Shown piece by piece: positions 29,809-39,524 of a stretch of DNA of 39,524 nt. Each line of letters begins with the position of its first letter. Position 1 is the stretch's first letter. This DNA comes from an uncultured Alphaproteobacteria bacterium (GTDB taxonomy: Bacteria; Pseudomonadota; Alphaproteobacteria; Bin95). Below the pieces are notes generated by a model that saw only the letters and a list, made by a program, of their open reading frames with translations, was not told the origin of the DNA and did no database searches. Position numbers and translations under genes: made by a program. The stretch is taken from positions 1-39,524 of the forward strand of contig CALLKY010000104.1 of NCBI GenBank assembly GCA_938083135.1, written 5' to 3'.

Positions 29809-30015
29809 AAGCTAGGGCCTTTCACCGAGGGTATAACCCGGCCAAAATCCAACAGGGCCGCGGATGATAGGGCCGCAGCGGCGCATTGCAAGCGTTAGGC
29901 CCCTGACCCGAGTGTCAGGACCCAAGAGCAACAGCATGCGGCAACACTTCTGTTGGCTTTCCGGGTCCGTACCGCTAATTTCCGGCGCTCACTCCAGATC
30001 AACCGCCGGATAGTC

Positions 30016-30519
30016 ATGCCAGATCCTGCCCTTTCAATCACTTACATCTGCCAGTCTGAAGCGGATACCGCCGCCTTGGCCGCCAACTTGGCACGCGTTG
30101 CGGCACCGGGTGACCTGGTGGTGCTAGAAGGCGCTTTAGCGGCAGGAAAAACGCATTTTATCAAATATATGTGCGGCGTACTTCAGATTGAAGATACAGT
30201 AACAAGCCCGACATTTACCCTAGCACATTTCTATGCTGGCCCCATCATGCCAGTTCTACATGTTGACGCTTACCGCATTGAAACGGCAAAAGAATTTTCA
30301 GACCTAACGCTGCATGACTTTTTCGACGACCATCTGACGGCAATTGAGTGGGGCGCTAAGTTCCAAGATGTCCTGCCGCCTGCCCTGCACATCCAAATCG
30401 ATCCGATAGACGGCGATGACAATGCGCGCCGGATCACCCTCGCCAGCGCTGCACCGTCTTGGGTTGCGCGGGCTGATGTGCTGCGCACCGCCTCAGAAAG
30501 CCTCATCCCATGCGACTGA
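30016..30519 (+). CDS. tsaE: tRNA t6A biosynthesis ATPase TsaE
   Basis: The 167-residue protein has a Walker A variant GALAAGKT (39-46; the usual TsaE form is GxLGAGKT), 'TSPTFTLAHFY', 'VLHVDAYRIE' and 'DHLTAIEWGAKF'. TsaE binds the TsaB-TsaD complex and hydrolyses ATP to reset it during synthesis of threonylcarbamoyladenosine at A37 of tRNAs reading ANN codons. The ATG at 30016 is where family proteins start; a longer frame to 29953 adds an unlikely basic leader. It overlaps tsaB by 10 bases and leads a four-gene t6A run, divergent from the P-loop gene. Confidence 0.92.
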   Translation: MPDPALSITYICQSEADTAALAANLARVAAPGDLVVLEGALAAGKTHFIKYMCGVLQIEDTVTSPTFTLAHFYAGPIMPVLHVDAYRIETAKEFSDLTLHDFFDDHLTAIEWGAKFQDVLPPALHIQIDPIDGDDNARRITLASAAPSWVARADVLRTASESLIPCD

Positions 30520-31142: not shown

Positions 31143-31734
31143 GCGCGACCCTAAAGCCGCTGCGAGCGCCCTCCTGGCCGGTGGCGTTGCGTTGTTGCCG
31201 ACAGACACCGTCTACGGCCTCGTAGCACACCCGGAGCAGCCGTTAGCCGCCCGCCGGATATTCCAGTTGAAGCGCCGGCCAGATGCGCTCCGCCTACAGG
31301 TGCTTGCTGGATCATTGGCTGACCTGGGGCGGATCGGCGCTCGATTGCCGCCCGCCGCAGAAGCCTTGCTGAGCAATGATGCGATCAAAGGCGGCATTAC
31401 GTTCATCTTTGCCCTTGATCCCGCGCTCCGCCCTGAATGGCTGGAAGACCGTGATGAGGTTGGCGTGCGGTTTCCGGCAGACACTTTCATCCAAAACGTC
31501 ATCAGCGAAACCGGCCCATTGTACGCGACCAGCGCCAATGCCCACGGCAAGCCACCCGGCAAGACCGTGGCAGACATCCTGGCAGACCTGGATGGCGCAC
31601 CGGATTACGTGGCGGATGGCGGCAGGCTCGTTGGCGTGAACTCCACCGTTGTCAATTTCAATGCAGACCCGCCGCGCGTCGAACGCTGGGGGGCTGTTGA
31701 TGATCTCACCGCATACGGGCTTGGCCATGCATGA
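31135..31734 (+). CDS. tsaC: Threonylcarbamoyl-AMP synthase TsaC (Sua5/YrdC)
   Basis: The 199-residue YrdC-domain protein makes threonylcarbamoyl-AMP from threonine, bicarbonate and ATP. Motifs are 'ALLPTDTVYGLVAHP', 'FQLKRRPDALRLQVL' (the Lys-Arg that binds substrate), 'YATSANAHGKPPGKT' and the C-terminal 'GVNSTVVNF'. Its length fits the short TsaC form rather than Sua5 with an extra domain. CGGAG lies 8 bases before the ATG, which overlaps the tsaB stop. The family N-terminus begins here, so the longer in-frame extension is excluded. The last 8 bases overlap tsaD. Confidence 0.93.
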   Translation: MAERDPKAAASALLAGGVALLPTDTVYGLVAHPEQPLAARRIFQLKRRPDALRLQVLAGSLADLGRIGARLPPAAEALLSNDAIKGGITFIFALDPALRPEWLEDRDEVGVRFPADTFIQNVISETGPLYATSANAHGKPPGKTVADILADLDGAPDYVADGGRLVGVNSTVVNFNADPPRVERWGAVDDLTAYGLGHA

Positions 31735-32728
31735 ACCAAACTCACTGATCCTTGGTATCGAGTCATCCTGCGACGACACCGCCGTGGCCTTAGTGGCCAG
31801 GGATGGATCCGTTGCGGCGGCCCTAACCCAGAGCCAGGCTGAAATCCACGCCCAATATGGCGGCGTATACCCGGAACTCGCCAGCCGGGCCCATGCCGCC
31901 GAAATCATCCCAACGATCCGCCAAACGCTGGCACAGATTGATGCGGCACCAGAACATATCCGCGCCATTGCCGTCACCCGCGGCCCTGGGCTGATCGGGC
32001 CGCTGCTTGTTGGCCTGAACGCGGCGGAGGGCTTAGGACTTGGATGGTCAAAACCTGTGGTCGGCGTCAATCACTTACGCGGTCATCTGCGCAGCGCAGA
32101 ATTAGATGGCGGCAAGATTACCTACCCTGCCGTTGTCCTGCTGGCCTCCGGTGGTCATACGCTGATGGCCTATATGGCGGACGCCAAGTCTGTCGAAATT
32201 CTGGGCGGCACCCGGGATGATTCCGTTGGCGAGGCCTATGACAAGGTCGCCCGCATGTTGGGCCTTGGATATCCGGGCGGTCCCGCTGTCGATAAGCTGG
32301 CGAAAACCGGCGCGCCAGACATTACATTCCCACGGCCCATGATCCGGGAAGGTTTGGAGTTTTCGTTCTCAGGCCTCAAATCCGCTGTCGCGCGATTGGT
32401 TGAACGCGAGCCGGACGTGGACAAACCGACAGTCGCCGCATCCTTCGTCGCTGCGGCAATGGACGTGCTGGCCGCCAAATGCGCCCGCGCCCTGGCAGAG
32501 CGGGAGGCGGCGTCACTCGTTGTGGTTGGTGGCGTATCCGCTAGTCCACAACTCCGCGAACGGACGGCGGAAGTGTGTGCTGCGGCTGGCGTTGATCTGG
32601 CGCTGCCGTCTCTCAAATGGTCCACCGACAATGGGGCGATGATTGCGCTGGCGGGCTGGGATTATCTGGATATGGGCCTTGTCCCGCACCTGAAGCCAGC
32701 GACACGGCTTTCCATCGAACAGTTTTGA
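31727..32728 (+). CDS. tsaD: tRNA N6-threonylcarbamoyltransferase TsaD
   Basis: The 333-residue ASKHA-fold enzyme transfers the threonylcarbamoyl group to A37 of tRNA. It begins with the family signature LILGIESSCDDTAVAL, has the metal-binding His116-x3-His120 (VNHLRGHLRS), 'YPAVVLLASGGHTLM', 'ARMLGLGYPGGPAVD', 'EFSFSGLKSAVAR', 'VVGGVSAS' and 'STDNGAMIA'. Length and motifs are typical. The ATG at 31727 overlaps the tsaC stop; earlier in-frame ATGs lie inside tsaC. It completes a contiguous tsaE-B-C-D set and is followed after 38 bases by a dioxygenase gene on the same strand. Confidence 0.97.
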   Translation: MHEPNSLILGIESSCDDTAVALVARDGSVAAALTQSQAEIHAQYGGVYPELASRAHAAEIIPTIRQTLAQIDAAPEHIRAIAVTRGPGLIGPLLVGLNAAEGLGLGWSKPVVGVNHLRGHLRSAELDGGKITYPAVVLLASGGHTLMAYMADAKSVEILGGTRDDSVGEAYDKVARMLGLGYPGGPAVDKLAKTGAPDITFPRPMIREGLEFSFSGLKSAVARLVEREPDVDKPTVAASFVAAAMDVLAAKCARALAEREAASLVVVGGVSASPQLRERTAEVCAAAGVDLALPSLKWSTDNGAMIALAGWDYLDMGLVPHLKPATRLSIEQF

Positions 32729-36627: not shown

Positions 36628-36996
36628 ATGGCTGAAAATCCAGCACCCGGATTCCAGAAAAAGCCGGATCACGAAGTGACGCTCACGCCCTTCACCGGAA
36701 ATGTTCAGGTGAGGCTGGGTGACGCCGTAATCGCGGAGAGCGCTCAGGCGATCAAAGTGACGGAATCCAACCACGGTGACTGCTTCTACATTCCACGCGC
36801 TGACGTTGCGATGGATCAGGCGACGAAGACGGAAACCTCCTCCTATTGCCCATTCAAAGGCCACGCCAGCTATTACAGCTTTGGGGCCGCGACGGATGCT
36901 GCTTGGTCCTATGAAGCGCCCTATGACGAATGCGCTGGCCTCAAAGACTATCTGGCATTCTATCCCAACCGCGTGAGCGATATCCGGGCGGGCTGA
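36628..36996 (+). CDS. DUF427 domain-containing protein
   Basis: The 122-residue protein is a single DUF427 domain, a small beta-rich fold. Recognisable segments are 'VQVRLGDAVIAESAQAIKV', 'FYIPRADVAMD', 'SSYCPFKGHASYYSFG' and 'AAWSYEAPYDECAGLKDYLAFYP' (read as two adjoining pieces). Function of the family is not established. GGAG sits upstream of the ATG. It starts a plus-strand run with the GT42-like gene 26 bases on, though a shared role is not evident. Confidence 0.88.
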   Translation: MAENPAPGFQKKPDHEVTLTPFTGNVQVRLGDAVIAESAQAIKVTESNHGDCFYIPRADVAMDQATKTETSSYCPFKGHASYYSFGAATDAAWSYEAPYDECAGLKDYLAFYPNRVSDIRAG

Positions 36997-37022: not shown

Positions 37023-38141
37023 GTGTCGCTCAAACACGCGTTTGGCTTGCTAGATCGCGCGCCAGAACGCTCGATCTGGTTTGTCGCTGAAACTGATGCA
37101 GATGTGGCGGCGGCGCACCGGCTAGCAACCGACATTGGTGACAAGCACGGGCGATTGGCGCTTTACATCAGCGGGCCAGAAGCGCCCACGCCGCTTACGT
37201 TGCAGCCACGGCCGATCCGGCTAAGACTTGCGTTGAAACTTGCGCTATCGCAGCTGAGGTGCCGGGCCGTGGTGCTGCCCGCGAGGCCATCAAGGTTCAG
37301 CATCGCGCTTGCGGCAGCGGCGGCGGCCAAGGGTCTGTCCGTTCTATTTTTGCCGCGAATAAATATTGATTTCATCATATTTATCAGTAAATTGCCGCAT
37401 CTTCTTCGTGAAAACCCTCGCAGTAAAACAGTTAATCCTTGGTCTGAAGCTATCGCCAAACGGATCAACCCGCCGATTGCATCCCTGGATGCATTGCAGA
37501 CGGCGCTCAACAGTCCAAAGACCGTTCTCTGCTTAGGCAGCGGCCCCTCCTCGAACGACGGCGCAGCCGTCGCTGCCGCAGAAACAGCGGACGTGATATT
37601 CCGTGTCAAGCATCGCTGGCTGAAGGAAGGGCGTATCCGCCGTGCAGATGTCGTATTCAGCGGCACGGTTGAGAGGACGCGGCAGGTGCCGAACGCTATC
37701 CTGCTGTCACCAGATACGACCACAGCCTATCGCGTCGCGTGGTCCGCTTTGCTGCGTGGGCGGCGCATCCGCTACGGCATTGTTGAGGCGCTGGCACCCG
37801 GCTTCCATGCCCGCGATAAATCCGGTGCGCGCATGACCAATGGCGCCGCGATGCTTGCCCTCGCCGTCGCAATGAAACCGGAGCGGCTGATCATCGCTGG
37901 CATCGATCTCTACAGCCATCCATCGGGCGCCTATCCGGGCACGCCAGAGACGGCCAACGCCTACGCGCCAGCCCATGACCGGGAGCTTGAGCGCACGCAC
38001 ACCCTGGCGATGCTGCAGCGGCAGATCACGCAATCCGGCCCGCAATCCCTAACCGTAATTGGGCCGCTGCATGATATTGCGATCCAGTCCGGCATCGCCC
38101 TTAATGCTGGCGGAAACGGCAATTCGGAGACCGCCCCATGA
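37023..38141 (+). CDS. GT42 (CstI/CstII)-like sialyltransferase-fold glycosyltransferase
   Basis: From GTG at 37023 (AGAGG, 8 bases before) the product has 372 residues. The C-terminal part resembles Campylobacter CstII: VLCLGSGPSS at 168-177 (nucleotide-binding GNGPSL region), 'ADVIFRVKHRWL', MTNGAAMLALAVAMK at 271-285, and AGIDLY at 292-297. His318 in 'PAHDRELER' sits where the general-base His188 of CstII would be. The first 150 residues recall the N-terminal half of Kdo transferases ('RSIWFVAETDADVAAAHRLA'). It may transfer sialic acid or Kdo to a surface glycan, but no sugar synthesis genes are nearby. It overlaps the sugar kinase gene as ATGA. An earlier in-frame start at 36930 lies inside the DUF427 gene. 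Confidence 0.65.
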   Translation: MSLKHAFGLLDRAPERSIWFVAETDADVAAAHRLATDIGDKHGRLALYISGPEAPTPLTLQPRPIRLRLALKLALSQLRCRAVVLPARPSRFSIALAAAAAAKGLSVLFLPRINIDFIIFISKLPHLLRENPRSKTVNPWSEAIAKRINPPIASLDALQTALNSPKTVLCLGSGPSSNDGAAVAAAETADVIFRVKHRWLKEGRIRRADVVFSGTVERTRQVPNAILLSPDTTTAYRVAWSALLRGRRIRYGIVEALAPGFHARDKSGARMTNGAAMLALAVAMKPERLIIAGIDLYSHPSGAYPGTPETANAYAPAHDRELERTHTLAMLQRQITQSGPQSLTVIGPLHDIAIQSGIALNAGGNGNSETAP

Positions 38142-39067
38142 GCATCGTCACCTTTGGCAGCGTCACCTGGGATGTCGCAGCCGTCGCCAGCCGCTTGCCA
38201 AAACCCGGCGAGACCTTGCTTGGCAGCGGTTACGCCCAAGGCCTTGGCGGCAAAGGGGCGAATCAGGCGGCGGCAGCAGCACGGCTTGGGGCGGGCTCAC
38301 ACTTCTTTGGGCGGATCGGCCAAGACCCATTCGGCAAAAGCGTGAAATCCGCGTTCGGCGCATTCGGCCTTGATCCATCAGGCCTTGCTGAGGACCCAGA
38401 GGCCGCGACAGCCCTCGGCGTGATCCTGATCGGCCAGGATGGTGAGAACGCGATCATCCAAGCGCCCGGCGCCAACCGCACCGTCAGCGCCGCAGATGTC
38501 ACCCGCGCCCTCCCCGCCATCGCCAAGGCCAAAGCCGTATTGCTGCAGCTAGAAGTCCCGCTGGAAGCCACATTGGCGGCGGCCCGTGCGGCGCGGCAAG
38601 CAGGTGCCTGGGTCATCCTGGACCCAGCGCCGGCCCCGCAAGACAGCCTGCCCGGCTCCATCTTCATGGCCATGGATATCCTGACACCGAATGAGATCGA
38701 GGCCGAAACCTATGCCGGGTTCCGCCCCATGGACGCTGAAAGCGGCCAAGCCGCCGCCCAACGGCTGGTGGACCTAGGTGCGCCCACCGCCATCGTCACC
38801 ATGGGTGCCGCCGGATGCGCCTGGGCGTCAGACACCGCCCCCTCCGGCTACCTCCCTGCCTTCCCCGTAGACGCCATAGACACCGTAGCCGCCGGCGACT
38901 GCTTCAACGCCGCCCTCGCCGTAGCCTTAGCAGAAGGCAAGCCGCTTAAGCCCGCCATCCACTTCGCCTCCGCCGCTGGCGCGCTAGCGACGACGGCCGT
39001 TGGAGCGGCTGCGGCTGCGCCTGGACGGGATGCGGTTGAGGGGGTGGTTGGTAATGAGGTGCGGTGA
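38138..39067 (+). CDS. rbsK: Ribokinase-like PfkB family sugar kinase
   Basis: The 309-residue PfkB-fold kinase has LGGKGANQA (36-44) near the substrate site, 'GRIGQDPFGKSV', 'GANRTVS', 'DILTPNEIEAE', and the anion hole and base DTVAAGDCF at 248-256 with catalytic Asp254. The second Gly of the usual DTxGAGD is Ala. The layout is closest to ribokinase, but other PfkB sugars are possible. No ribose transporter or repressor is nearby. It is translationally coupled to the glycosyltransferase gene by a 4-base overlap, so it may phosphorylate a sugar for the same pathway. It is followed by more than 300 noncoding bases. Confidence 0.85.
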   Translation: MSIVTFGSVTWDVAAVASRLPKPGETLLGSGYAQGLGGKGANQAAAAARLGAGSHFFGRIGQDPFGKSVKSAFGAFGLDPSGLAEDPEAATALGVILIGQDGENAIIQAPGANRTVSAADVTRALPAIAKAKAVLLQLEVPLEATLAAARAARQAGAWVILDPAPAPQDSLPGSIFMAMDILTPNEIEAETYAGFRPMDAESGQAAAQRLVDLGAPTAIVTMGAAGCAWASDTAPSGYLPAFPVDAIDTVAAGDCFNAALAVALAEGKPLKPAIHFASAAGALATTAVGAAAAAPGRDAVEGVVGNEVR

Positions 39068-39387
39068 TGGCGGTGCGGGGTGGTCCGGCTTTTCAAGTAT
39101 CAAGAGGCTGTATCTGAAAAAGATAGCATTTGCTCTTGGTGAAGTTTCGCCCTAACTATCAATGGCAGAAACGGCCCAAAGCTGCCGATCATCCGAGACC
39201 TTCGGATTGCAGTCTTGTTCCAGATTTCTGCCATTGCAGACAGCGCTGGGCTTCGACGTCAACATATCTTGAGATAGCAAGATGCTTGTGCGCCCCTGAT
39301 AAAAGTGCGCACATTGTTAGTAGTCTCTTATCCCTCTATACTTAATCATAACTAACGCACAGTGATGGTGCGGCCTTCAAATTATTT
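39068..39387. other. Noncoding stretch between the sugar kinase and the right-hand IS
   Basis: No convincing gene was found here. It holds a nested inverted repeat (39160-39236) and a 7-base hairpin (tgtgcgc 39287-39293, gcgcaca 39307-39313). AT content rises towards the IS. Confidence 0.6.
39160..39236. repeat. Nested inverted repeat, possible small RNA structure or MITE relic
   Basis: Outer arms caatggcagaaa (39160-39171) and tttctgccattg (39225-39236) are a perfect 12-base match. Inside, ctgc (39182-39185) pairs with gcag (39209-39212), and atccga (39191-39196) with tcggat (39202-39207). The nesting would give one long imperfect stem with an alternative hairpin, ggcag (39164-39168) with ctgcc (39182-39186). 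Confidence 0.55.
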
Positions 39388-39524
39388 GGGGCTGGCCTAT
39401 CTAAGGGTTTCGGTTCAGAGGTTTGCCCACTTGCGTAATACTTTCAAGAGGTTTTCGGTGGGCCTGTGATTGAAGCGCCATTCGCACTCTTTGAGATAGA
39501 GGTGAAAGTGCTGGCTAGGGACGC
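39388..39524 (-). mobile_element. IS1595-family insertion sequence, end (partial)
   Basis: The minus strand runs from a transposase C-terminus out to a proposed terminus near 39388, where a GGGGCTGGCC stretch begins on the plus strand. The exact end and the terminal repeat cannot be checked because the other end is outside the window. The transposase remnant is the main evidence. Confidence 0.5.
39415..39524 (-). CDS. IS1595-type (ISXO2-like) transposase, C-terminal 35 residues
   Basis: The minus-strand frame enters from the right edge and ends at a TGA at 39417-39415. It reads FHLYLKECEWRFNHRP and then LLKVLRKWANL, which resembles the C-terminal tail of IS1595-family transposases with an ISXO2-like DDE domain, where a HLYLKECEWRFN-type segment is typical. 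The catalytic domain is outside the window. I am confident it is a transposase tail, less so of the subgroup. Confidence 0.65.
   Translation of the reverse strand, partial: VPSQHFHLYLKECEWRFNHRPTENLLKVLRKWANL

Follow-up and report, generated by a model that had tools for sequence, protein, structure and literature searches.

Lipopolysaccharide synthesis is typified by the Kdo transferase WaaA (KdtA, family GT30), which, before KdoT was described, was assumed to add all Kdo of the inner core. In vitro, the ELM1-like KdoT of Acinetobacter baumannii was found to use CMP-Kdo as the donor for adding Kdo to Kdo2-lipid IVA, and a KdoT homologue from Rickettsia gave partial complementation (PMC12856342). 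In another family, GT42, transfer by CstII employs His188 as the general base (PMC4202792). Here we describe an alphaproteobacterial gene whose product appears to combine a lobe related to WaaA with a domain related to CstII.

The gene and its surroundings

The window, i.e. the whole stretch of 39,524 nucleotides that was analysed, is an entire contig, C104, from a draft genome (G000) of 4.15 Mb and 99.99% completeness. The transferase gene, its domains and motifs and the two adjoining genes are located on the forward strand. The gene for the GT30N-GT42-like chimeric glycosyltransferase (37023..38141) encodes 372 amino acids from a GTG start. Its frame is open further in the 5' direction, up to an ATG at 36930, and comparison with a congeneric homologue supports GTG 37023 as the probable start. 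The gene is preceded by a DUF427 (NTP_transf_9) gene (36628..36996) and followed by a gene for a ribokinase-like PfkB sugar kinase (38138..39067), with a 4-bp overlap in which the transferase stop and the kinase ATG at 38138 share the letters ATGA, as read directly in the sequence. The transferase frame is where the sequence-only reading that preceded this work had placed it, within the range 37023-39067 given there. Membership of the kinase in the PfkB family is clear (Pfam, E 6.4e-56), while the ribokinase cut-off of TIGR02152 is missed (280 vs 299.65 bits). The contig ends about 450 bases past the kinase gene (39068-39524), so that any further downstream partner genes are out of view. Elsewhere in the window, homologues of TsaE (29953-30519) and TsaD (31649-32728), ordinary tRNA-modification genes, are found near each other.

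A search of genomes identified a homologue with 48% identity in a congener (G013), where the genes for aconitase, DUF427, transferase and PfkB kinase occur in the same order. Between these two species the PfkB (69%) and aconitase (85%) neighbours are more conserved than the transferase. The coupling of transferase and kinase, pointed out in the sequence-only reading, is present, but it is specific to this lineage: of all loci found, none but the window and the congener (G013/L068) shows it. The kinase was therefore dropped as a system-defining feature, being confined to one genus; a functional link between the two enzymes is putative and, like the coupling, genus-specific.

Relatives and domain composition

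Taken alone, the window protein falls below the Pfam cut-offs, and for this reason the earlier assignment of its two halves could not be decided from one sequence. It matches the CST-I family (PF06002) with E 0.15 and 12 bits against a cut-off of 25, it finds CstII among PDB sequences at about E 2.5, and its N-terminal region has no direct match in Pfam. Used as the only query, it retrieved no relatives in a search of genome contigs, and a search of plasmids for relatives also returned none. The genome search provided, besides the congeneric homologue, a second relative in a more distant alphaproteobacterium (G213), and a three-sequence alignment including it as query retrieved 56 related loci from public genomes. 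These include members of the genera Pelagibius, Hansschlegelia, Mesorhizobium, Bosea and Aestuariivirga, as well as metagenome-assembled genomes of Gammaproteobacteria, Acidobacteria, Planctomycetota and Verrucomicrobia. Weak matches (L009-L015, E 0.001-0.009) were left out of the relatives, and a match of one member (L018) to the viral peptidase family PF12381 was set aside as peculiar to that member and not present in other relatives. As judged from sequence comparison, it is these 56 loci, and not the single sequence, that settle the ancestry of the window protein. The two-part architecture, considered unusual before, is thus not a one-off but belongs to a widespread family, and GT42, regarded as a trait of mainly host-associated bacteria, is represented here by a GT42-like family found mostly in free-living ones. 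A literature search, which covered open-access papers only, returned no description of a GT30-GT42 fusion; the family is apparently undescribed, and the window gene encodes a diverged member of it.

The GT42-like catalytic domain comprises residues 155-358 (37485..38096). A profile of 35 related C-terminal domains matched, among PDB sequences, CstII with E 6.3e-8 over 147 columns, the sialyltransferase of P. multocida with 2.9e-6 and Cst-I with 2.4e-5, the sole remaining match being an unrelated chain at E 0.56. Taken singly, 31 of the 35 domains matched CST-I in Pfam at E up to 1, with a best value of 2.3e-6. When 385 genomes of the class were searched with PF06002 no match was obtained, but the controls were likewise unmatched, which makes this result uninformative. 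The AlphaFold model of the window protein (pLDDT 89) resembles Cst-I with Z 12.4 over 190 residues (rmsd 4.1), human ST6GalNAc2 with Z 12.1 and CstII with Z 11.2. The domain thus has a fold of the sialyltransferase/MptE/Maf group, shared also by GT29 and HPPK, and in sequence it is nearest to GT42, in agreement with the CstII-like domain proposed from the sequence alone.

Equivalences to CstII N9, N31, N51, R129 and S132 were taken from the window-CstII and profile alignments. The GSGPSS motif (residues 172-177; 37536..37553) corresponds to GNGPSS of the family and to G-N9-G-P-S of CstII, and Lys196 in FRVK (37608..37610) corresponds to the Asn of the family motif FRVN and to N31. At the N9 and N31 positions Asn is found in 37 and 38 of the 40 aligned members, respectively, in contrast to Ser173 and Lys196 of the window protein; the N51 position is occupied by Gly or Ala in 38 of the 40. 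The R-M-T-N-G motif (residues 270-274; 37830..37844) is the equivalent of CstII R129-I-T-S132-G, and G-I-D-L-Y (residues 293-297; 37899..37913) that of G-I-D-F-Y156. Elements invariant in all 40 members include C-x-G-x-GPSS, Arg194, Phe212, Gly274, Asp295, Tyr304 and His318 (37974..37976). The last is the presumed general base and putative equivalent of CstII H188, a residue that lies past the end of the profile-CstII alignment.

The N-terminal GT-B-type lobe (residues 14-150; 37062..37472) is a degenerate relative of the WaaA/Kdo-transferase N-domain, as indicated by the fold of the model and by the family. The Kdo-transferase-like character that had been proposed for it was borne out through the relatives: the Kdo transferase N family PF04413 has matches in 17 of 40 and in 9 of 17 of them (best E 1e-25), and hhalign of the family N-lobe against the WaaA N-lobes of sister genera yielded P 94.6 and E 6.8e-8 over 105 columns. 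A canonical N-lobe of the family, predicted with pLDDT 79, has as its top structural match WaaA of A. aeolicus (2xci; Z 11.9, 138 residues, rmsd 2.9), a rank that it shares with MurG and further GT-B lobes. WaaA is absent among the best 50 structural matches of the whole window-protein model, which we do not regard as counter-evidence.

In the window protein the N-lobe runs straight into the GT42-like domain, with no donor-binding C-lobe of WaaA, and in nearly all members the column of the WaaA catalytic glutamate (SIGE motif) contains Ala, Asp or another residue. A planctomycete member (L046:7881-9929) carries an apparently complete WaaA followed by the GT42-like domain; it matches 2xci with E 2.3e-23 over both halves, it has an HGEGMGEF motif and keeps the WaaA glutamate, and it is likely to be a bifunctional enzyme. 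Other members have a degenerate WaaA (L045, L047, L050) or, in the clade of the window protein, the N-lobe only, and part of clade B comprises little besides the GT42-like domain. Erosion from complete WaaA to lobe-only to stand-alone forms is one reading of a tree that lacks a true root.

Neighbours of the family and envelope pathways of the genus

A homologue of ELM1/KdoT is encoded in 17 of the 56 loci, mostly directly upstream of the GT42-like gene, and also at a further locus (L008 of G136). In one case (L039:1-2133, its start cut by the contig edge) ELM1/KdoT, the Kdo-transferase N-lobe and the GT42-like domain are fused in one protein. A second partner family is present in 25 loci (e.g. 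L030:9515-10951 in Pelagibius litoralis), usually beside the GT42-like gene and mostly unannotated; two of three tested members have no Pfam match, and that in L018 has a weak one to GT8. This neighbourhood places the main clade of the family in the assembly of the inner core or of lipid-linked glycans. A separate clade of 14 sequences (support 99/96; L055, L058, L059, L060, L063, L067 and relatives) is found in operons for uptake and catabolism of sugar acids, together with TRAP transporters, aldehyde dehydrogenase, galactarate/altronate dehydratase, GntR regulators and DHDPS-family aldolases. The domain thus has at least one other setting and need not always act on glycans.

The genomes of the window's genus differ from those of their relatives in the lipid A pathway genes found. 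LpxC has no match in any of the five genus genomes (G000, G010-G013) and was found in all nine other genomes of the family, and WaaA (PF04413) has no match in the same five and was found in eight of the nine. All are drafts, two of the five in the genus being at least 99% complete. This gene content suggests that lipid A synthesis was lost in the genus, and the enzyme has then probably taken on a different role in sugar transfer; our literature search found no report of lipid A loss in Alphaproteobacteria.

The possibility that no CMP-sugar pathway exists in the genome, raised at the outset, did not materialize. Only two PF02348 genes were found, encoding KdsB and PseF, and the latter belongs to a complete PseB-C-F-G-I cluster (L115:6864-12280; G000:C5), all members of which score above the curated cut-offs. 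From this gene content the organism is predicted to make both CMP-Kdo and CMP-pseudaminic acid. PF01973 (MptE/Maf) has no match in any of the 14 genomes of the order, the window's genome included, where a protein of this type would be the user of the Pse cluster. A KpsS/KpsC-like pair is present in the window's genome (L114:14063-19899; G000:C13) and in the congener (L116:2-7437; G013:C100), adjoining polyketide-synthase-type (KR, ER-like, ACP) and 8-amino-7-oxononanoate-synthase (AONS)-like genes. Within the order, the pair was found in no genome except the two in which the GT42-like gene is present, a co-occurrence of n=2 genomes. The combination of KpsS/KpsC with polyketide-type and AONS-like genes resembles a capsule that has a dedicated lipid anchor.

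Proposed function, alternatives and comparison with known systems

We propose, with a probability of about one half, that the window protein is a repurposed CMP-ulosonate transferase under selection, a diverged member of the GT30N-GT42 family. The GT42-like domain would be the catalytic unit, probably using a CMP-activated ulosonic acid, i.e. Kdo or, in the window's genome, pseudaminic acid, and transferring it by inversion with the invariant His as the base. The WaaA-type N-lobe, mostly devoid of the WaaA catalytic glutamate, probably docks a lipid-linked acceptor at the membrane. The Kdo/lipid A inner core is the probable ancestral acceptor, and the family as a whole probably attaches a Kdo-like ulosonic acid close to a lipid-linked core. 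Within the window's genus the enzyme would have been retained under selection and retuned to another acceptor, possibly a glycolipid of the KpsS/KpsC type. The two domain assignments of the earlier reading were correct; the addition of a nonulosonic acid, which it also suggested, is still an inference.

The most serious challenge to this proposal is that the window lineage may have left CMP-ulosonate chemistry, the GT42 fold now handling another nucleotide-linked or phosphorylated substrate, perhaps the product of the PfkB kinase. In the tree, the proteins of the window and of the congener group together inside the lobe-only clade (support of the larger clade 100/96), and their stem is the longest of all (1.44); both differ at five near-invariant positions (N173S, E178N, N196K, P208A, P271M/L). 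The window copy is, by this sequence comparison, an atypical and fast-evolving member of the family. Replacement of the N9 and N31 equivalents, two asparagines of the donor site, together with the changes at the three other positions, means that the use of CMP-ulosonates may have been lost; the confinement of the kinase coupling to this lineage and the presence of relatives in sugar-acid catabolism operons point in the same direction. However, most other motif residues are kept, the presumed base included, and the genome has both CMP-ulosonate pathways, so we consider such a change of chemistry unlikely, if well worth keeping in mind.

It is less probable still that the gene is a functionless, fading relic of the lost lipopolysaccharide pathway. 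The lack of LpxC and WaaA matches in the genus would fit such a relic, as would the finding of the gene in only two of the five genus genomes and the eroded N-lobe, which shows 32% identity (54% for the C-domain) and in the window has no detectable sequence match on its own, an observation that also speaks against our proposal. Yet the frames are intact in both species at about half identity, gene order is the same, and the invariant residues are kept. Moreover, codon positions 1, 2 and 3 of the C-domain differ at 0.34, 0.27 and 0.52, and a second position about half as variable as the third indicates selection on the protein and makes a relic unlikely.

A Maf- or MptE-type protein (flagellin glycosyltransferase or pterin pyrophosphokinase) in place of GT42 is very unlikely; the sequence-only reading had named the MAF/DUF115 group as an example of an unrelated fold that would contradict its assignment. 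The overall fold is the same, and the archaeal HPPK of M. jannaschii (Z 11.0) and Maf (Z 10.6) are nearly tied with CstII as matches of the model. Sequence favours GT42: MptE-like (PF01973) is matched weakly by 3 of the 35 C-domains (best E 0.058) as against 31 for CST-I, no hit to it was listed with the window protein as query within an E limit of 10, and the C-domain profile matches neither Maf nor HPPK among PDB sequences. A classical sialyltransferase adding N-acetylneuraminic acid, to which the GT42 profile match might point, is very unlikely, as the NeuB-type synthase encoded in the Pse cluster is a PseI by its score (494.5 bits, above the cut-off) and stays below the cut-off for NeuB (287.7 vs 399.65), PseF is the cytidylyltransferase of that cluster, the only other PF02348 gene found is KdsB, and the gene content predicts no Neu5Ac in the organism.

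Beyond the single protein, we tentatively propose that the family represents a novel class of ulosonate transferases, composed of a WaaA acceptor lobe and a GT42-type catalytic domain and acting alongside KdoT-type enzymes in building the lipopolysaccharide core, which the window's genus carried into a lipid A-less envelope with new donor or acceptor specificity. The existence of the family hints at a further, uncharacterised step of ulosonate addition in many Alphaproteobacteria and in other bacteria, and its complete WaaA fusion, degenerate fusion, lobe-only and stand-alone forms offer natural intermediates to experimenters. In the window's genus, an enzyme of lipopolysaccharide type seems to have outlived lipopolysaccharide.

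Among known systems, the family N-lobe is homologous to that of WaaA/KdtA (GT30; PF04413), and the planctomycete fusion has both WaaA halves, but most members lack the C-lobe and the catalytic glutamate, and the lobe of the window protein is shortened and without a direct sequence match. The association with homologues of Acinetobacter KdoT (PMC12856342) points to an inner-core Kdo context, although KdoT, itself a GT-B protein, belongs to a separate family (PF06258) and is not homologous to the GT42 domain. Maf flagellin glycosyltransferases and MptE-like proteins (PF01973) have a related catalytic-domain fold, while the sequence evidence favours GT42. With CAZy GT42 (Cst-I and Cst-II of Campylobacter jejuni; PF06002) the family shares the fold (Z 11-12), a profile match at E 6e-8 and the motifs GNGPS, FRxN, R-x-T-S/N-G and GIDxY, but it is only about 15% identical, lies under the Pfam cut-off, has the extra N-lobe and occurs mostly in free-living bacteria, and the window copy additionally lacks the equivalents of N9 and N31.
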